Positions 4,297 through 42,341 of a DNA stretch of 64,000 nucleotides are shown one piece after another. Source of the stretch: Thiohalorhabdus denitrificans (GTDB lineage Bacteria; Pseudomonadota; Gammaproteobacteria; Thiohalorhabdales; Thiohalorhabdaceae); contig NZ_LJCP01000009.1 in the NCBI RefSeq assembly GCF_001399755.1, forward strand, positions 62,001-126,000, given 5' to 3'. The first letter of the stretch is position 1. Every line of letters begins with the position of its first letter. The notes under the pieces were generated by a model, which did no database searches, was not told the origin of the DNA, and saw nothing but the letters and a program-made list of their open reading frames with translations. A program made the position numbers and the translations under genes.

Positions 4297-7293
4297 ATGC
4301 CGAAATCCGCCCAGACAGGGCGCCTGCGCAGCCCATCTCGGGCCCGTGTGTCAGCCGCCGGGAAGGCCGGCCCCTTGGCCGGCCTTTTCCTGGGGCTGGT
4401 GGCCGTGTCCGAAACGGCGGTGGGTCTCGGGCTGGGAAAGCTCGAGGTCGAATCGAGGCTCGGCAGTCCCTTGCACGCGGAAGCGCCCGTCCACCTGAGC
4501 GGTCAGGAGTCCGCTACCTCTTTGGAAGTGGCCCTGGCGTCCGCCGAAGATTACCGGATGGTGGGCCAAACCCCGGCGCCGATCGTCCGGCAGCTGGAGG
4601 TGCGCCTGTTGGGCGGGGAGCCTCCGCGGATCGTCCTGCTCAGCTCTGAGCCCCTCCATGCCCCCCTTTTCGAGGTCATGGTCCGGATTGGTGACGGGGA
4701 CAACCAAGTCCTGAAGATGTTCACCGTGGCCCTGGACCCGGCCCGGGCGGCCCCGCCCGAGGCGAAGGCCTCCGCCTCCCAATCCGCTGGCTCGGGATCC
4801 TCAGGGGGCGCTGGTACGAAGCCTCGCCCCGCCACCGCTTCGGCGGCACGGGAAGTCTCCGCCCCCCGCGGTGGGGAGCCGGCCGTTGAGCGCCCCGCGG
4901 TGGAGGTGACTGAGGGGTGGGCCAAGCGCGACCGCTACGGTCCGGTGCGTCCCGGGGACACCCTGGCCACCGTCGTTCAACGGGTCCGTCAGGACGCCTC
5001 GGTGCCCATGGAGTCGGCGCTCGTAGCGGTCTGGAAGGATAATCCCGAGGCCTTCGTGGACGGCAACATGAACCTGCTCCGGCGGGGGGCGGTTCTGGAC
5101 CTCCCCGGAGAGGAACGCATCCGCCGCATCTCCGTGGAGGAGGCGGAGAGCCTGATCGCCGAGCAGCGCCGCGAGTGGGAAGAACGGGGGCAGCCGGGTG
5201 CCGATCCCAACCCCGGCCATGAGCGCTACCACCTCAAGGTGGGGCTGGACCGGGACGATAATGGAGCGCCCACCGCCTCCACGGAACCCGATTCCTCCGA
5301 GTCGGGGGATGACCCCGAGGAGGAAAAGAAGCCGGAAGAGGGAAAGGGGGAAGAAGAGCCCGAACAGGCTGAGCCGCCCGAGAAGGGGGAGGACTCCGAG
5401 GGCCCTGCGAAAGGGGAAGACCCCGAACAGGCGGAGTCTCCGGGGGAAGCAGAGGATCCCTCGGAGTCCGAGCCCGTCGCCGGGGATTCCCGGGACGGGG
5501 GCAGCCTCCAGGAGGCCGCCGTAGAGGCCGGCAAGGATATTGCCGGGGAAGGGGCCGCGGGCGAGCAGCCCGGGCTGGCGGTGGCCGAGGAGGTGCAGGC
5601 CGACCTGGAGGAGCTGCGCGGTTCCCTGGAGGACCGGCGCAGCTCCATGCAGACCACCATCGGCTCCTTGGAGGACCGTCTTACCTCCCTGAACGAGCGC
5701 CTGGACCAGCAGAGCGCCCTGATCGACAAGCAGAGCGAGACCATGTCCGCCATGGCCACTCGCCCGGCGGACGATGGCGGTATGCCGAGTCGTGACCGGT
5801 ACACCCTCTGGGGGCTGGCCGGGGTGAATCTGCTCATGCTCCTCGCCATCCTAGCCCTATGGCGGAAGGTGAGCGGAGGGCCAAGGGGCACCCCTCCGCC
5901 CTCCGGGGATGGGGGGCTGGATGGGTCCGACGGGGCCATGGAGGACCTCGATCCCTTGACCCGGGCCAACGCCCAGGCGGCAGCGGGGGAGCTCAAACAG
6001 GCCCGTTCCACCCTCTGGCAGGCGCTGGCCCTGGAGCCCCAGAACTGGGCCCTGTACGGGCGCCTCCTGGACCTTTACGAAGAGGAATGGGACGGAGACC
6101 AGTTCGAGGAGGTGGCCCGCCGCCTCTTCTCCCAGCTGGGGGATTCCCATCCGGATTGGCAGGAGGAGATCCGCTGGCGTGGTCGGCAGCTCAAGCCCGA
6201 GAGCACCCTGTTCGCCGGCCTGGGCCATTCCACTCCGGTCGCAGGGTCGGAGGCAGGCGGCGCGGCGAAGGGCGACGAAGGCCCTTCCTTCGACATGGAC
6301 GACTTCGATTTGGGTTTGTCCTCGGAGGCGGGGGCCGCGAACGAGTCTGCGCCGCCTTCCCCCGCGCCGACAACTGAACCGGAGTCCGGCGGGAATGCCG
6401 CTGCGGCGATGGGGGAGCCGGAGCCGGAAGATGACTTGGTCTTCAGCTTTGGGGACGAGCCCCAGGCCGAGGAGGAGCCGGTTCCCGCCCCGGATAAAGG
6501 GACCACGGGGGTGGCTTCCGCCGAAGCGGCGGGCACCTCTCTGGAGGAGGACCTGAGTCTGTCCCTGGATGGGGACGCTACGGAGCCCTCCTCCGCCTCC
6601 AACGGTCACGAATCGGGTACCGGGGAGGCCGGGGAGCATGCCGATCTGGCCCTGAATATGGACACCGGGGGCGGGTCGGACGAGCTTACCGCCGACCTCT
6701 CCGGGGCGTCGGCCCCGGTGGACTCTTCGGAGCCCACACCTTCGCGGGTGGGCTCCGGGGCAGCGGATGATGGCGGCAACGAGCTGGAATTCGATCTCGG
6801 CCTTGACGCCGGCAGCGAGGATTCCGGGTCGGCCGGGGAAGAGGATCTGGAATGGGCCGCCCCGGAGGGCTCGACCGGGAACGGACCCGAGGTCGCGGAT
6901 GACGGCCTCGAATTCGACCTCGGGTCGCTTGAAGAGGAAGGCCCTGCCCCTTCCCCCTCGGCCCCGGAGGCCACCGCGCCCAATGACGGCGCGGATGACC
7001 TGGACCTTTCGCTGTCCGATCTGTCCGGGGAAGGGCCGTCCGGCGGGGCTCAGGACGAGTCCTGGCTGGATCTCGATGCCTCCGGCGGCAACGAGGCCGG
7101 CGGAAGCGGTCCCGTTCCCGGCGAAGGCGGGGAGCCGGATGACAATGAGCTCGATATCAAGCTGGACCTCGCCCGCGCGTGGATCGATATGGGCGACCCC
7201 GAGTCGGCCCGGGGCCTGCTCCAGGAGGTGGAATCCCAGGGGGAGACGGAGCAGCAGGAGCGTGCGCGCCAGCTCCTGGCCTCCTTGTCCTGA
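4297..7293 (+). CDS. fimV: FimV-type polar hub protein
   Basis: FimV family proteins are inner-membrane proteins that bind peptidoglycan and organise cell-pole assemblies such as type IV pili. The 998-residue product has a signal-like hydrophobic stretch at about 25-45. The FimV N-terminal domain (VESRLGSPLHAEAPVHLSG) follows, with a LysM-like segment at about 209-270 (YGPVRPGDTLATVV). A coiled-coil-like region precedes a single membrane segment at about 502-523. The cytoplasmic part starts with a TPR-like section, runs into a long acidic linker with repeated ELEFDLG-like motifs, and ends in the FimV C-terminal domain (NELDIKLDLARAWIDMGD). It stands between asd and truA as in many gammaproteobacteria. 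The assignment is firm. Confidence 0.93.
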   Translation: MPKSAQTGRLRSPSRARVSAAGKAGPLAGLFLGLVAVSETAVGLGLGKLEVESRLGSPLHAEAPVHLSGQESATSLEVALASAEDYRMVGQTPAPIVRQLEVRLLGGEPPRIVLLSSEPLHAPLFEVMVRIGDGDNQVLKMFTVALDPARAAPPEAKASASQSAGSGSSGGAGTKPRPATASAAREVSAPRGGEPAVERPAVEVTEGWAKRDRYGPVRPGDTLATVVQRVRQDASVPMESALVAVWKDNPEAFVDGNMNLLRRGAVLDLPGEERIRRISVEEAESLIAEQRREWEERGQPGADPNPGHERYHLKVGLDRDDNGAPTASTEPDSSESGDDPEEEKKPEEGKGEEEPEQAEPPEKGEDSEGPAKGEDPEQAESPGEAEDPSESEPVAGDSRDGGSLQEAAVEAGKDIAGEGAAGEQPGLAVAEEVQADLEELRGSLEDRRSSMQTTIGSLEDRLTSLNERLDQQSALIDKQSETMSAMATRPADDGGMPSRDRYTLWGLAGVNLLMLLAILALWRKVSGGPRGTPPPSGDGGLDGSDGAMEDLDPLTRANAQAAAGELKQARSTLWQALALEPQNWALYGRLLDLYEEEWDGDQFEEVARRLFSQLGDSHPDWQEEIRWRGRQLKPESTLFAGLGHSTPVAGSEAGGAAKGDEGPSFDMDDFDLGLSSEAGAANESAPPSPAPTTEPESGGNAAAAMGEPEPEDDLVFSFGDEPQAEEEPVPAPDKGTTGVASAEAAGTSLEEDLSLSLDGDATEPSSASNGHESGTGEAGEHADLALNMDTGGGSDELTADLSGASAPVDSSEPTPSRVGSGAADDGGNELEFDLGLDAGSEDSGSAGEEDLEWAAPEGSTGNGPEVADDGLEFDLGSLEEEGPAPSPSAPEATAPNDGADDLDLSLSDLSGEGPSGGAQDESWLDLDASGGNEAGGSGPVPGEGGEPDDNELDIKLDLARAWIDMGDPESARGLLQEVESQGETEQQERARQLLASLS

Positions 7294-7312
7294 GGTCGAC
7301 CGAACCCTGCCA

Positions 7313-7346
7313 GCGGCGCCCCGTTCCGGCGGGGCGCCGCTTTTTT
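7313..7346 (+). terminator. Rho-independent terminator after fimV
   Basis: A perfect 10-bp stem GCGGCGCCCC (7313-7322) with GGGGCGCCGC (7331-7340) encloses an 8-base loop and is followed directly by six T residues (7341-7346). It lies 19 bp after the fimV stop and separates fimV from the downstream EcfT-truA-trp genes. Confidence 0.92.
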
Positions 7347-7367
7347 GGGTGAGGGGGGTGGTGCGTC

Positions 7368-8117
7368 ATGGGTGATCGTGGCGCCGCCAACGGCAACGAG
7401 GGCCTGCATGCGGGCGGCAAAGTCCTGGCCGTCCTCCTGCTGGCCCTCGGGCTGACCCTGGGCGGGGGCCTGGCCGAGGTGCTGGCTACGGCGTTGCCCG
7501 TGGCCCTGGCCCTGCTCCGCTCTCCCGGTGCCGGAGGGGCTTTCCTCCTCCTGCTGCGGCGGCTCCGGGTGGTCTTCCTCTTCATCCTGATCCTGCACGG
7601 CTGGTTCTCGCCCGGCGTCCCGCTCTTTACCGAGCTGGGCGCATGGTCCCCCAGCCGGGCGGGGTTGGTGGAAGGGGTGCGGCTGGTGGGGGTGGTGGGA
7701 TTGATGGCGGCCATGGTGGCCGCCCTAGTCCGGACCACCCCGGTTCCCGAGCTTGCCGGTGGGGTGGCCTGGGTCCTCCGGCCCCTGGGGCACCTGGGGG
7801 TGCCGGTGGAGCGGTTCGGCCGGCTGCTGGCCTGGACGGTGGAGCGGGTGGAGCCTGTGCGGCGGGAAACGGGCGCGGTGCGTCAGGTCCTGCGGCTGCG
7901 CCGCCCCTCCGGCCGGGGCCTGGCCGCCAGGCTCGGCCAGGAGGCGGCTGCGGCCCGGGTGGTTCTACGGCGCGCCCGCGAGGCCGCCGACCGCAACGCG
8001 GAGGCCCTGTACCTGCGCCGGGCCGGCGGCGTTCGTCCCCCCGGCGCCCCGGACCGGTACGATTGGGGCCTGATGGTCGCCGCCGGGACTTGGGGCCTAC
8101 TGATGGCGGCGCTCTGA
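7368..8117 (+). CDS. EcfT/CbiQ-like membrane protein
   Basis: The 249-residue product has four to five strongly hydrophobic segments, the first at about 17-50, and then a basic, helical C-terminal half. The segment RTTPVPELAGGVAWVLRPLG resembles the EcfT/CbiQ family, the transmembrane coupling component of energy-coupling-factor vitamin and metal transporters, where a 'T..P.EL..' stretch precedes an 'RPL' coupling helix. No ATPase or substrate-binding S-component gene is nearby, so any transport role would need partners elsewhere. The gene is 18 bp upstream of truA and begins a probable transcription unit after the fimV terminator. The family call is moderate and the substrate unknown. Confidence 0.6.
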   Translation: MGDRGAANGNEGLHAGGKVLAVLLLALGLTLGGGLAEVLATALPVALALLRSPGAGGAFLLLLRRLRVVFLFILILHGWFSPGVPLFTELGAWSPSRAGLVEGVRLVGVVGLMAAMVAALVRTTPVPELAGGVAWVLRPLGHLGVPVERFGRLLAWTVERVEPVRRETGAVRQVLRLRRPSGRGLAARLGQEAAAARVVLRRAREAADRNAEALYLRRAGGVRPPGAPDRYDWGLMVAAGTWGLLMAAL

Positions 8118-35028: not shown

Positions 35029-35109
35029 GTAGGAGCTCGCTTCAGCGGGCGATTGGGCAAGCGGGCACCGGTGCTCCGGAAGGAATCGCCCGCTAAAGCG
35101 GGCTCCTAC
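35029..35109. repeat. Paired REP-like palindromes (copy C)
   Basis: Between the convergent smc and norD genes are GTAGGAGCTCGCTTCAGCGG (35029 onward) and a facing unit at about 35084-35109, whose inner stem is CGCCCGCTAAAGCGGGC. The facing unit is almost the exact inverse of the left unit of copy A. The spacer is about 30 bp. Confidence 0.78.
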
Positions 35110-35133: not shown

Positions 35134-36984
35134 CTACTGCGTGAGCTGGGCGTAGAGCTGCGGCAGCCGGCGGGGCAGCTCCTCCGGCGTGCGGATCACC
35201 ACGAACCCCTGGCTGCCGAACAGGTGGGGCAGGTAGTCCTCGGCGTCGCGGTCGATGGTCACGCAGAAGGGCTGCAGGCCCGCCTCCCGCGCTTCCCGCA
35301 CCGCCATCCGGGTGTCCTCCACCCCGTAGCGGGCCTCGTACTGGTCCATGTCGTTGGGCTTGCCGTCGGTGAGCAGCAGCAACAAACGCTGCTCGGCGCT
35401 GCGCTTCCCCAGCAGGTGCGTGGCCTGCCGCAGGGCCGTGCCCATGCGCGTGTAGAACCCCGGCTTGATGGCGGCCAGCCGGCCGCGCACCCCCTCCCCG
35501 TACCGCTCCCCGAACTCCTTCAGGACGTGGAAGCGCACGTGCTCGCGCTTGCGCGACGAGAACCCGTACAGGGCGAAGGCATCGCCGGTGGCGGCCAGGG
35601 ACTCGGCGAAGAGGAACAGGCTGTCGCGGATGACGTCGATGACCCGGGCCTCGCTGTTCACCCAGGTATCGGTGGACAGGGAGAGGTCGGCGAGCAGCAG
35701 ACAGGCCAGCCGCCGGTCGCCGCCGCGCAGGTCCTGATACAGGGCGGGCTCGCCGCTGGCCTGTCCGGCTGCGCGTTCGGCGGCGAAACGCTCGTAGGCG
35801 TCGAGGTCGATCTCCGTGCCGTCGGGCTGGGCCTTGCGCCAGGTGCGCACGGGGTTCAGCTGCTGGAACTGGGCCCGCAGCCGTCGGGCGGTCCGGTGCA
35901 GGTGGTGGGGCAACGGGGTGGGCTCGGCCTCCAGCGCCACCATGGGCTGCAGCCGGCAGTGATCGGGCCGGTGGGTCCCCCGCCGGTAGTCCCATTCCGG
36001 CAGGAGGATGCCCGAGCCCAGGGGGGTGTCGTCGTTGGCCGCGCTCGGCAGATCGAGGTCGAAGCGCAGCCGAGAGGCGGAGCGGCGGTTGTCCCGGGCC
36101 AGGGAGAGCAGATCCAGGTCGTCGGCCGCCGACGCGGCGTTGTCCAGGTCCTCGTCCTCCTCGGTGGGGCGGTCCACGTTCAGGTACTCGGACCAGCTCA
36201 GGATGCTGTCGAAGGGGAACAGGAGCAGCCCGCTGTTCCGCTCGGGCATGGCCACCTGCTGGCCCCGGCGCCGCCGGCGGTCCTCCAGGGCCCGGGTCTC
36301 GCCCTCGCCCTCCGGGTCCGCCGGCTCGCCGTCGTCCCCCGCGGGCGCCCGCGGCTCGTCCCAGCGGGGCGGGTGCGGGTGCAGCCAGAGGGCCACGGGG
36401 TAGGGCGGGCGCCGGGCGGCGGGGAGGGCCAAGGGCTGGCGTGGGTCGATCAGGGCCTCCCGGACGGCCCGCTCGGCGGCCGCCTCGTCCGCGGGTAGGC
36501 GCTTTGGGTCGGGGCGCAGCGGCAGGTAGGCCTCCGCCAGGCGGGCGTAGCGCGCCCGCATCCCGGGCAGGCGCGCCAGCGCCCGGGCGGTCAGCCAGGG
36601 TCCGCGCTCCCAGCCCGACGGCCCCTCCGCCGTGCGGTCCAGCGCCGCCAGGGCGGCGACCCACAGGTACAGGTCGCGGTTGCGCTCCGCGTCGGGGAAG
36701 AGGTCGATGCGTTCCGGCAGGCGCAGCGCCTCGGCGTCCGCCCAGGCGCGCTCCACCCGGCGGTGGCTGCCCGCGATCCGCTGCAGGAGACTGCGCCGGG
36801 CGCCATGGGGCTCGGCCCCGGCGGCCTCGATGGACAGGCCGGGGTCCCCGCCCAGGGCGCGGAAGAGCAGGCCGAGGCGGGGGCGGAGCCCGTCCAGGGT
36901 GACCGCCGCCTCCGGGTAGGCGGTCCGTGCGGCGCCGCTGATCAGGCGGTCCCAGACCTTGCCGACTTCCTCTTCGGGATCCAT
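35134..36984 (-). CDS. norD: Nitric oxide reductase activation protein NorD
   Basis: NorD works with the AAA protein NorQ to assemble or activate nitric oxide reductase, probably inserting the non-heme iron of NorB. The 616-residue product is mostly helical and charged, with a C-terminal von Willebrand factor A domain from about residue 420. This carries the metal-site motif DLSLSTDT and then DGKPNDMDQYEARYG. The ATG at 36984 is chosen from the family start DPEEEVGKVWDRL; the frame upstream lies within the polyferredoxin gene on another frame. It is separated from norQ by two genes, unlike the compact norCBQD order of Paracoccus. Confidence 0.93.
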   Translation of the reverse strand: MDPEEEVGKVWDRLISGAARTAYPEAAVTLDGLRPRLGLLFRALGGDPGLSIEAAGAEPHGARRSLLQRIAGSHRRVERAWADAEALRLPERIDLFPDAERNRDLYLWVAALAALDRTAEGPSGWERGPWLTARALARLPGMRARYARLAEAYLPLRPDPKRLPADEAAAERAVREALIDPRQPLALPAARRPPYPVALWLHPHPPRWDEPRAPAGDDGEPADPEGEGETRALEDRRRRRGQQVAMPERNSGLLLFPFDSILSWSEYLNVDRPTEEDEDLDNAASAADDLDLLSLARDNRRSASRLRFDLDLPSAANDDTPLGSGILLPEWDYRRGTHRPDHCRLQPMVALEAEPTPLPHHLHRTARRLRAQFQQLNPVRTWRKAQPDGTEIDLDAYERFAAERAAGQASGEPALYQDLRGGDRRLACLLLADLSLSTDTWVNSEARVIDVIRDSLFLFAESLAATGDAFALYGFSSRKREHVRFHVLKEFGERYGEGVRGRLAAIKPGFYTRMGTALRQATHLLGKRSAEQRLLLLLTDGKPNDMDQYEARYGVEDTRMAVREAREAGLQPFCVTIDRDAEDYLPHLFGSQGFVVIRTPEELPRRLPQLYAQLTQ

Positions 36985-36992
36985 GGGCTTCC

Positions 36993-37985
36993 TCAGTCTT
37001 CGTAGACGATGCGCGGGCCCTCGGCGGTCCGGTCCGCGCGGAAGCAGTCCGGGGGTACCTCGGGGCGGTGGCCGAAGTCGTGGGCGGAGACGTCCAGGGC
37101 GCATTCCCCGTCCACCCAGCGCAGCAGGGATCCCTCCGGATTGTTCGCCTGGACGGTCTCGCAGGCAGTGATGCACTGGGCGCATTGGGTGCAGGCGAAC
37201 ATGTGGCGTTTGATGGTGCGGGGCTTCAGCCGCATGGGGCAGGCGTTGTCGCAGGCGGCGTTGCACGAGGCGCAGTCCGCTGCCCGCGCGCGGTCGAAGC
37301 CCACCACCATGGCCCGGCGGTTGGCCAGCCACACCAGGCTCTGGAACAGGCCCACCGCGCAGCCGTAGCGGCAGAAGAAGTGGCGCGCGGCGAGGAAATC
37401 GATCAGGAACAGGGTGGTGGCCACCCCGATAAAGAGGGCCTGGTTCCGGGTGAGCTCCGCGGTGACCAGGTTGCCGTAGACCGTGGCCGGGGGCAGCAGG
37501 TAGGTGAGCAGCACCACGGCCCACAGCAGGGCGAAGCCGGCGGCGGCCAGCAGGGTCACGGGCCACAATCGGCGGTCGCTCCGGCGCAGGCCGCCGTCGG
37601 CCCGGCGCGCGGGCAGGGGCTTGGGCTCCCAGAGGGAGGGCCGGCCGATGCTGCGCTCCATGAGGCCGTTGACGGTCTCCACCACCGAGAAGTGCGGGCA
37701 CAGCCAGCCGCAGTACAGGCGGCCCCACCGCCAAGCCACGAGCAGGAACAGGGCGGCCCCGCCGAACACCGGGAGGAAGAACCGCCAGAACAGGTTCCAG
37801 CCCGCCTCCAGGGCGCTCGCCTCGCCCGCCACGAAGGGGCCCAGCCCGAGGGTCCAGTCCTGGCCGAACAGGATGGCGTGGCCCAGGGTCAGGTCGATGC
37901 GGAAGAGGTCCAGTGGCGGGGCCAGTACGAACAGGGCGAAGAAGCCCAGCCGCGTCAGCCGCCTGCGGTCCTGTAGCGCGCCCAT
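36993..37985 (-). CDS. Membrane polyferredoxin (NapH/CcoG/NosR-like)
   Basis: The 330-residue product has about five membrane segments and two bacterial 4Fe-4S ferredoxin motifs near the C-terminus, CASCNAACDNACP and CTQCAQCITAC. It also has two membrane-associated cysteine pairs, CGWLCPH and CRYGCAVG, the hallmark of the NapH/CcoG/NosR electron-transfer family. It lacks the large flavin domain of NosR. Its place between norQ and norD suggests it supplies electrons or helps metal-centre maturation for nitric oxide reductase; that is inference. CcoG, a copper-reducing assembly factor for cbb3 oxidases, is the best alternative model. It ends 8 bp before norD. Confidence 0.85.
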   Translation of the reverse strand: MGALQDRRRLTRLGFFALFVLAPPLDLFRIDLTLGHAILFGQDWTLGLGPFVAGEASALEAGWNLFWRFFLPVFGGAALFLLVAWRWGRLYCGWLCPHFSVVETVNGLMERSIGRPSLWEPKPLPARRADGGLRRSDRRLWPVTLLAAAGFALLWAVVLLTYLLPPATVYGNLVTAELTRNQALFIGVATTLFLIDFLAARHFFCRYGCAVGLFQSLVWLANRRAMVVGFDRARAADCASCNAACDNACPMRLKPRTIKRHMFACTQCAQCITACETVQANNPEGSLLRWVDGECALDVSAHDFGHRPEVPPDCFRADRTAEGPRIVYED

Positions 37986-38076: not shown

Positions 38077-38481
38077 TCACTTCTCCCCGCAGCGCGGACC
38101 GATGAGGGGATAACGGAAGGGTTGGCCGGCCATGGCGCGGGTCAGGCCGATGACCCCGAACAGGATGAACATGGAGTGCACGCAGGTGATGTACAGGATC
38201 AGGAGCACCCAGGTGGCGGGCCGGTCGAAGCCGCCGACCCCGACGATGAGCAGGGCCGCCGCCCCGATCAGGATCCCCGCCCAGATGCTTGCCGCCACCG
38301 CCTGGCGCAGGTGGCAGGCAGCGAGGGGGGAGGCCGTGGGCCCTCGGGTGAGGAACAGCCACAGCAGGAGGCCGAAGCCGAGGACCGGGGCCGGCAGGAG
38401 GTTGACCAGGTAGAGGGCCTCGGCCCAGACGGCCAGGCGGCGGTCGCCGGGGGCGGAACGGTCAGTCGCCGAGGACTGCAT
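38077..38481 (-). CDS. DUF4870-like membrane protein in the nor cluster
   Basis: The 134-residue product has three to four membrane segments. It shares with the C-terminal half of the gene at 42413-43054 an HLRQA/NFQIS-type loop and the terminal motif QPFRYPL, which is the DUF4870 signature. No catalytic motif is visible. It overlaps norQ by 20 bp, so it is probably translated from the same message, and a role in nitric oxide reductase assembly is suggested by position alone. The ATG at 38481 is the first in frame. Confidence 0.78.
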   Translation of the reverse strand: MQSSATDRSAPGDRRLAVWAEALYLVNLLPAPVLGFGLLLWLFLTRGPTASPLAACHLRQAVAASIWAGILIGAAALLIVGVGGFDRPATWVLLILYITCVHSMFILFGVIGLTRAMAGQPFRYPLIGPRCGEK

Positions 38482-39271
38482 GCACCACCTCCATCAGGCC
38501 ATCCAGGGTCTCGGTGTCGTCGCTTAGGGGCTCCACCAGCGCGTTCTCGCAGGCGGCCACCGGGTCGAAGCCGTCGCGGATCAGGGTGGCGGCGTGGACC
38601 ACCAGGCGGGTTGAGGCGGCCTCCTCGATGTCGTGGTCCTCCAGGCGGCGCATGCGGTTGGCCAGTTCCACCAGCTGGTCGGCCCTCTCGGCGTCCAGGC
38701 CGGTCTCGGTGACCACGATGTCGCGCTCGGCGGCGGGCTCGGGGAAGTTGAAGCGCAGCCCCACGAACCGCTGGCGGGTGCTGGTCTTCATGCCCTTCAG
38801 CAGGTTCTGGTAGCCGGGATTGTAGGACACCACCAGCATGAACTCCGGAGGGGCCTGCAGGGTCTCGCCGGTGCGGTCGATGGGCAGGATGCGGCGGTCG
38901 TCGGAGAGGGGGTGGAGGACCACGGTGGTGTCCTTGCGGGCCTCCACGACCTCGTCCAGGTAGCAGATCCCGCCCTCGCGGACTGCGCGGGTCAGGGGGC
39001 CGTCCGACCAGTAGGTGGCACCGTCGCCGATCAGGTGGCGGCCCACTAGGTCGGCCGCGGACAGATCGTCGTGGCAGGCCACGGTGTACAGGGGCCGTCC
39101 CAGCTCCGCGGCCATGTGCTCCACGAAACGGGTCTTGCCGCAGCCCGTGGGTCCCTTGATGAGCACCGGGAGCTGGTTGCGGTGGGCGTGCCGGAACACC
39201 TCCGTCTCCCGCCCCTGGGGGCGGTAGAAGGGGGTGTCCGGGGTGGCAGCGGCGAAGGCTTGCGTAGCCAT
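38462..39271 (-). CDS. norQ: Nitric oxide reductase activation ATPase NorQ
   Basis: NorQ is a MoxR-type AAA ATPase that acts with NorD in maturation of the NorB iron site. The 269-residue product has Walker A GPTGCGKT at residues 40-47, Walker B in GGICYLDEVVEARKD, and sensor 1 in MLVVSYNPGYQ. The segment VACHDDLSAADLVGRHLIGDG is characteristic of NorQ and CbbQ; the nor neighbours decide for NorQ. norF lies 20 bp upstream and the DUF4870-like gene overlaps its end. Confidence 0.95.
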   Translation of the reverse strand: MATQAFAAATPDTPFYRPQGRETEVFRHAHRNQLPVLIKGPTGCGKTRFVEHMAAELGRPLYTVACHDDLSAADLVGRHLIGDGATYWSDGPLTRAVREGGICYLDEVVEARKDTTVVLHPLSDDRRILPIDRTGETLQAPPEFMLVVSYNPGYQNLLKGMKTSTRQRFVGLRFNFPEPAAERDIVVTETGLDAERADQLVELANRMRRLEDHDIEEAASTRLVVHAATLIRDGFDPVAACENALVEPLSDDTETLDGLMEVVHAVLGD

Positions 39272-39291: not shown

Positions 39292-39576
39292 TCAGCTTCC
39301 GGCCAGTAGGAAGGCGGTGGCGATCAGCCCGCCCACGGCCGCCAGCCAGGCGCCGAGCACCAGGCGCCAGAGCGGCCGCACGCGGGCGAGCTCCATGTAG
39401 CGCCAGGCGATCAGGCGCCCCTTGAGCAGGGCGATCCCCAGGGCGCCGAAGATCAGGACCGGGCCCTCGACACCGAACTCGCCGATGGCGTAGGTGGCCC
39501 CGGTTAGGGCCAGCAGGAGCAGCCAGGTGGCGGTGGCGGCGGGCTCCGGGACGGTGGAACGGGCGAATCGGTTCAT
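39292..39576 (-). CDS. norF: NorF / cytochrome c oxidase subunit IV-like protein
   Basis: The 94-residue product has three membrane segments and the arrangement of the prokaryotic COX4 family (LLLLALTGATYAIGE, then GALGIALLKGRLIAWRYMEL). In Paracoccus, NorF is a small accessory membrane protein needed for full nitric oxide reductase activity. The gene begins 4 bp after the norE stop, giving the paired norEF. The symbol rests on position and size, as sequence conservation of NorF is low. Confidence 0.82.
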   Translation of the reverse strand: MNRFARSTVPEPAATATWLLLLALTGATYAIGEFGVEGPVLIFGALGIALLKGRLIAWRYMELARVRPLWRLVLGAWLAAVGGLIATAFLLAGS

Positions 39577-39580
39577 GGCG

Positions 39581-40171
39581 CTACCGCATCACGTAGACGA
39601 GGGGGAACAGGATCAGCCACACCAGATCCACCATGTGCCAGTAGGCGGCCCCCGTCTCCACGCCCGTGTGCTCGGCGGCGGTGTAGGCCCCGGCGCGGGC
39701 CTTGGCGGCCACCGCCGCCAGGATCACCATGCCCATGATCACGTGCATGAAGTGGAAGCCGGTCAGCGACAGGTAGAACATGTAGAAGGTGTTGGTGGAA
39801 AGTCGGATGCCTTCCCCGTAGTGGTGGACCAGCTCGGCGCCCTTCACCAGCAGGAAGGCCCCGCCTGTGGCCAGCGCCGCCAGCAGCCAGCGCTGGCAGG
39901 CGGCGGCGCCGCCGCGGCGGATGGCGCCGACCGCCCGCACCGCGAAGTAGCTTCCGGTGAGCAGCAGAGCGGTGTTGATCAGCCCGCCCGTGCGGTCGAG
40001 GTTCGCCTGGTACTGGTTGAACAGCGCCGGGTTGCCCGCGCGGGCGAAGGCGTAGGCGGCGAAGAAGACCCCGAATACCAACAGCTCGGCCAGGATGAAC
40101 ACCCACATGGCCAGGTCGCCGGGCGGGTAACGGCGCAGGCCGGCGGCCACGGGTTGCGGATCGGTGCGCAT
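39581..40171 (-). CDS. norE: NorE, cytochrome c oxidase subunit III-like protein
   Basis: The 196-residue product has five membrane segments of the heme-copper oxidase subunit III fold: LAMWVFILAELLVFGVFFAAY, then TNTFYMFYLSLTGFHFMHVIMG and YWHMVDLVWLILFPLVYVMR. NorE is an accessory protein for cytochrome-c-dependent nitric oxide reductase. The ATG at 40171 is preferred because the extension to 40231 reads into the inverted repeat upstream. It is separated from norB by 195 bp of structured, non-coding sequence. Confidence 0.92.
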   Translation of the reverse strand: MRTDPQPVAAGLRRYPPGDLAMWVFILAELLVFGVFFAAYAFARAGNPALFNQYQANLDRTGGLINTALLLTGSYFAVRAVGAIRRGGAAACQRWLLAALATGGAFLLVKGAELVHHYGEGIRLSTNTFYMFYLSLTGFHFMHVIMGMVILAAVAAKARAGAYTAAEHTGVETGAAYWHMVDLVWLILFPLVYVMR

Positions 40172-40187
40172 GGGCGCTTTCCCTGTG

Positions 40188-40314
40188 GGATCCACCGCGG
40201 AGCCGCAGGGACCCCGGCGGGGTCCGGCCACGGGGTGGGCCGAAATCGCCGCTCGGGGGGGAAGGGCGGACCGTTGCGGCCTCGCCGGGGTCCCTGCGGC
40301 TTCGCGGTGGATCC
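40188..40314. repeat. 35-bp near-perfect inverted repeat between norB and norE
   Basis: The 35 bases at 40188-40222 (starting GGATCCACCGCGG) are matched by the inverse of 40280-40314 (ending GCGGTGGATCC) at 33 of 35 positions, with a 57-bp spacer. As RNA it would form a very stable stem upstream of norE. No other copy was noticed in the window. It may be an inserted element or a processing and stability structure in the nor message. Confidence 0.8.
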
Positions 40315-40330
40315 GTCCTAAGAAGGGCCC

Positions 40331-40350
40331 GGAGGGGCACGGGCCCCTCC
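40331..40350 (-). terminator. GC hairpin just after norB
   Basis: GGAGGGGC (40331-40338) and GCCCCTCC (40343-40350) form a perfect 8-bp stem with a 4-base loop, 17 bp after the norB stop. On the minus strand only a weak run (CCCTTCTTA) follows, so complete termination is doubtful; partial attenuation between norCB and norEF is more likely. Confidence 0.4.
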
Positions 40351-40366
40351 AGGCGTCGCGGCGGTC

Positions 40367-42341
<1,975 letters not shown>

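Follow-up and report, generated by a model that had tools for sequence, protein, structure and literature searches.

A candidate message boundary between norCB and norEFQD: a single-copy inverted repeat beside a hairpin that recurs after norB across Proteobacteria

In the puf operon of Rhodobacter, an intercistronic stem-loop between the subunit genes of an energy-converting complex sets the ratio of the subunits. NorCB, which converts toxic NO into N2O, is a respiratory-chain enzyme, and such an enzyme probably has to be abundant, whereas few copies of its chaperones should suffice. Among the latter, NorQ and NorD are essential for iron insertion, according to PMC9976466. In operons whose segments decay differentially, such as malE-malF, the 3' ends of the stabilised segments carry, according to PMC5927463, stable hairpins that lack a uridine tract, 17 of 26 of which lie within the downstream coding sequence, and selective RNA processing and stabilization (SRPS) is described in PMC4423207 and PMC8219983.

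Here, we describe the gap between norB and norE in a stretch of 64,000 nucleotides (the window, meaning the whole DNA analysed). The nor cluster is encoded entirely on the minus strand, where norC and norB come first and, past the gap, norE, norF, norQ, a DUF4870-like gene, a gene for a ferredoxin-type membrane protein and norD follow; a scan of positions 39900-40600 found no sigma-70-like promoter on either strand, a context compatible with co-transcription. The named genes are:

41779..42204, minus strand: norC, cytochrome c subunit (PF00034)
40367..41767, minus strand: norB, catalytic subunit of cytochrome-c-type NO reductase (PF00115)
39581..40171, minus strand: norE, COX3-like accessory protein (PF00510)
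39292..39576, minus strand: norF-like small membrane protein (PF03626, COX4_pro)
38462..39271, minus strand: norQ, MoxR-type AAA+ ATPase (PF07728 and PF08406, CbbQ/NirQ/NorQ C-terminal)
35134..37014, minus strand: norD-like protein with a VWA domain (PF00092)

The two additional genes that separate norQ from norD are 38077-38481, with a weak DUF4870 match below the cut-off of that family, and 36993-37985, whose product is a ferredoxin-type membrane protein resembling NapH/CcoG. An FNR/NNR-like site, ATGATCCTGATCAA, lies at 42328-42341, some 125 nt upstream of norC. It is one mismatch away from TTGATNNNNATCAA, which we take to be the FNR/NNR motif; the window holds eight matches to TTGATNNNNATCAA at up to two mismatches, against 3.2 expected.

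The norB-norE gap measures 195 nt. Read in the nor sense, the norB stop codon is followed by 12 nt, a 12-bp hairpin (40354-40327), another 12 nt, the 35-bp hairpin (40314-40188) and finally 16 nt including an AGGG, after which the norE ATG begins at 40171. This AGGG (40184-40181) begins after 3 nt past the end of the 35-bp repeat and is probably the norE ribosome-binding site. The elements of the gap are:

40327..40354, minus strand: 12-bp hairpin after the norB stop, a perfect stem with a 4-nt loop
40280..40314, minus strand: 5' arm (nor sense) of the 35-bp inverted repeat
40223..40279, minus strand: 57-nt spacer of the 35-bp repeat, which forms small hairpins of its own on folding
40188..40222, minus strand: 3' arm (nor sense) of the 35-bp repeat, ending 16 nt 5' of the norE ATG

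The two arms are complementary at 33 of their 35 positions (94%). Under ungapped scoring (+1/-2) the repeat reaches 29, compared with 20 for the runner-up in the window and 13-15 in ten first-order Markov simulations of the window. It is also the top inverted repeat among 709,539 bases of its own genome (the window and 34 further stretches, 35 records in all, about one quarter of the 2,869,005 bases), where it ranks first of 36 repeats scoring at least 15. Folded as nor-sense RNA, that is, from the minus strand, the 127-nt element has an energy of -98.4 kcal/mol (z about -9.4), which was equalled by 0 of 200 dinucleotide shuffles. The 221-nt stretch across the whole gap gave a z of -8.0, a stability that none of 200 shuffles reached, and the number of long-range pairs in the gap was matched in 8 of 1000 shuffles. 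For the small hairpin, which begins 12 nt past the norB stop, we obtained -27.6 kcal/mol and a z of -5.2. These results reproduce exactly the arms, the matches and the spacer given in an initial annotation of this DNA, bear out its claim that the stem is among the strongest RNA structures in the window, and agree with its placing of the repeat at the junction of norCB and norEFQD; the second hairpin that it saw just after norB is where it was reported, with a perfect stem of 12 bp and not 8 bp.

The norB-norE repeat is genuine and unusual; it is present in a single copy, and structures of its kind are known. When a 26-base arm pattern was searched for in the same genome with up to three mismatches, only the two arms themselves matched, and a search of that genome with the gap at E ≤10 returned, besides the gap itself, only short and weak matches (best E 0.027). 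Comparison of the gap DNA with 185 genomes gave no match in the 184 others. The initial annotation had allowed for many copies elsewhere, which would make it a dispersed repeat; none was found beyond the two arms. We therefore rejected a dispersed repeat, whether REP/BIME or other, with one copy in the genome and matches in 0 of 184 other genomes. A mobile-element remnant (MITE or transposon) was rejected as well: terminal inverted repeats are present, but no target-site duplication of 2-10 bases flanks the repeat, and the genome contains no other copy within three mismatches.

Several of the 36 strong inverted repeats in the genome do fall into dispersed families, of which there are two: the first has GTAGGAGC-like ends and the second is composed of AACCGCCAAG units. 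The norB-norE repeat is a member of neither. Immediately downstream of norD, 35029-35054 and 35084-35109 form an inverted pair with GTAGGAGC ends; because such pairs recur elsewhere in the genome, they represent a dispersed family that is REP-like, REP being the name we presume to apply. The second family, AACCGCCAAG...CTTGGCGGTT, was seen in the same genome at L140:8795-9056 and L143:3160-4307, with some units closely spaced. The norB-norE repeat resembles the GTAGGAGC-ended repeats in being a spaced inverted pair outside coding sequence, but differs from them in its ends (GGATCC) and in its single copy.

We then compared the region past norB among nor loci. Over the 70 nt past the norB stop, the median folding z was -2.51, with 57 of 86 loci below -2, as against medians of 0.48 past norC (2/79 below -2), 0.39 past norE (0/53) and 0.18 past norQ (3/68); as the loci are related, these and the following counts are not independent and overstate the number of independent events. 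In a set widened by 29 loci from other Proteobacteria, 68 of 118 had a z below -2 over 80 nt, including 16 of the 29 added. The hairpin is present also where norQ or another gene comes next (z below -2 at 33/47 loci with norE, 20/41 with norQ and 15/30 with another gene downstream). A perfect stem of at least 7 bp with a loop of 3-12 nt follows norB in 74 of 115 loci, norC in 0 of 103, norE in 2 of 54 and norQ in 7 of 89. Since the region past norB is often non-coding, we added non-coding controls, in which such stems occurred at 10-17%: 10/97 and 13/97 upstream of norC, and 14/82 in other co-directional gaps of 70-260 nt between mechanically called ORFs elsewhere in the same loci. The excess after norB over these controls is thus about four- to six-fold. 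Loci counted among the 86 and the 115 had a matched norB end and sufficient window length, identical windows were counted once, our own window is included in both, and L088 was dropped from the z and stem counts as a copy of L070. Hairpin-less loci exist (41/115 lack a perfect 7-bp stem and 50/118 have a z of -2 or above). Across the many lineages in which the hairpin recurs, its sequence varies freely, and what recurs is its position.

Two congeners were examined, and norB-norE was found in only one of them (G001, locus L086). In its gap of 154 nt, norB is followed by a hairpin and then by another, interrupted stem, which likewise ends 16 nt before the ATG. By energy, this second stem was matched in 2 of 500 shuffles, for a stretch picked by eye after viewing, and by long-range pairs in 105 of 1000 shuffles, which is not significant. 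The two gaps are mostly different in sequence and align too poorly for pair counting, so we do not claim covariation for the 35-bp stem, which appears lineage specific, with a possible weak counterpart in the congener. Another locus, L008, has a very long hairpin of different sequence, with the arm AGGGCGAACACGCAGGTTCGCCCCTACA, in the 152-nt gap that separates norE from norB (norB match at 6001-7380, gap downstream of it); this hairpin has the look of a dispersed repeat at the same junction.

In ten loci with norB and norE overlapping, directly adjacent or almost so, the hairpin lies within the start of norE, at the following positions:

L011:1941-2011
L020:7399-7469
L039:7390-7462
L082:1937-2009
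L090:2017-2087
L181:1448-1521
L184:2017-2087
L186:2017-2089
L187:790-862
L188:1444-1521

The 5' arm of this hairpin consists of variable codons for the N-terminus, the 3' arm of those for a conserved LPGDFAI stretch. These loci, 10 of 20 candidates, were aligned (alignment A2); L182, L183 and L185 were left out as copies of L020, L011 and L039, respectively, L191 and L193 because norB is absent from the stretch, and L189, L190, L192, L194 and L195 because they have an ordinary gap. In A2, 88.4% of 190 cells pair, and both sides change in 4 of 19 pairs. The covariation score was 0.236, compared with 0.128 after shuffling (0/500 as high, in a test that leaves relatedness among the loci out of account) and at most 0.083 in slid controls. 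RNAalifold independently predicted nearly the same stem, with 15 pairs, three of them changed on both sides. On codon reading, the varying positions of the 3' arm are the third bases of Pro, Gly, Asp and Ala codons, which leaves the LPGDFAI protein motif unchanged while the RNA partner follows. This fits the pattern in E. coli given in PMC5927463, where protective hairpins lie within the downstream coding sequence and wobble positions are more conserved. The element that these comparisons mark as conserved is the small hairpin beside norB and not the 35-bp repeat. The idea in the initial annotation that a structure at this junction matters, which is of the same kind as the reading given below, thus gains from the recurring post-norB hairpin and from the covariation in one family, but its emphasis on the 35-bp stem fell on the wrong one of the two hairpins; of its suggestion to compare the gap among related nor clusters, what came out is that the small hairpin recurs and the 35-bp repeat itself appears lineage specific.

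We regard it as about an even call that the hairpins at the norB-norE junction constitute an intercistronic protective boundary that would part the norCB message from the norEFQD message post-transcriptionally. The long nor message would be cut, and the hairpins would protect the norCB fragment at its 3' end from 3'-5' exonucleases; the large hairpin could in addition guard the norEFQD fragment at its 5' end, leaving the ribosome-binding site free, and the norCB message would become more abundant than the accessory message. The large stem would then best be read as a second, lineage-specific reinforcement of the post-norB boundary. That the genes are transcribed together, that the message is cut, that the hairpins protect it and which part gains are all inferred. 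Two features of SRPS and protective hairpins are found here: stability far above chance at an internal operon boundary and the lack of a uridine tract.

The 35-bp repeat might instead be a neutral relic, either of a recent local inverted duplication or of a solitary mobile element, which would leave only the small norB hairpin functional. Its apparent lineage specificity and the mostly different congener gap favour this, and the near-identity of the arms (33/35) fits a young duplication; however, the genome holds no further copy within three mismatches, the target-site duplication sought is missing, and the repeat sits exactly where other lineages have hairpins and spares the norE ribosome-binding site, all of which makes such an origin, in our judgement, rather unlikely. 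Still less probable, though worth keeping in mind, is that the hairpins act in transcription, terminating it in part or pausing it after norB, so that the amount of read-through would set the expression of norEFQD. In some other loci the post-norB hairpin does have a T-rich tail, with at least five T in the eight bases past the stem (only 27 of 118 loci, 12 + 7 + 8), and intrinsic termination may take place there; in the window, however, neither stem has a T-run and the scan for terminator-like sites over 39900-40600 returned 0.

We consider it very improbable that the 35-bp repeat acts at the DNA level or through the opposite strand, be it as a binding site, a cruciform or an antisense-RNA hairpin. 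Both arm mismatches are A/C in the nor-sense RNA, where they give no sign of selection on that RNA, and become G/U wobbles in the plus-strand RNA, so that an antisense transcript would form a slightly more stable, uninterrupted stem (-108.9 versus -98.4 kcal/mol). However, two mismatches do not suffice for a decision, the promoter scan was empty on either strand, and Rfam gave no family above its gathering cut-off; the one match, PyrR206, scored 19.5 bits where 46 are required.

Returning to a protective boundary after norB, we tentatively propose, with slightly less than even confidence, that it is kept by position and not by sequence across Proteobacteria and has been re-invented repeatedly, as a terminator-like stem, as the giant double hairpin of the window or within the first norE codons, and that it sets the ratio of NorCB to its assembly and accessory proteins. 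This ratio would matter because surplus NO is toxic. Counting against a protective boundary after norB, a microarray study of Bradyrhizobium diazoefficiens (PMC6710368) gives inductions of 81.2 for norC, 71.2 for norB, 56.3 for norQ and 17.6 for norD, with no sharp step from norB to norQ; these values are fold changes, and the norB gap of that organism was not part of our comparison. A boundary hairpin after norB is described in no title or abstract beginning that we found among open-licence full texts. If the proposal holds, such a hairpin would be a simple way for denitrifiers to set the ratio of NorCB to its chaperones, and it yields predictions for any denitrifier with RNA-seq; the pattern at the end of norB across Proteobacteria seems worth proper study.

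Among known systems, the puf stem-loop of Rhodobacter differs from the present case in genes and sequence. A Gram-positive system, which was mapped experimentally, shares with it stem-loops 3' of particular genes in operons that encode multi-subunit complexes, here recognised in sequence alone. Compared with the malE-malF type described in PMC5927463, the giant stem is single copy, is not a REP sequence, is preceded by a smaller hairpin and is known solely from its sequence; the likeness consists in a stable hairpin without a uridine tract at an operon-internal boundary after the first genes and, in one related family, in a hairpin that lies within the downstream coding sequence.
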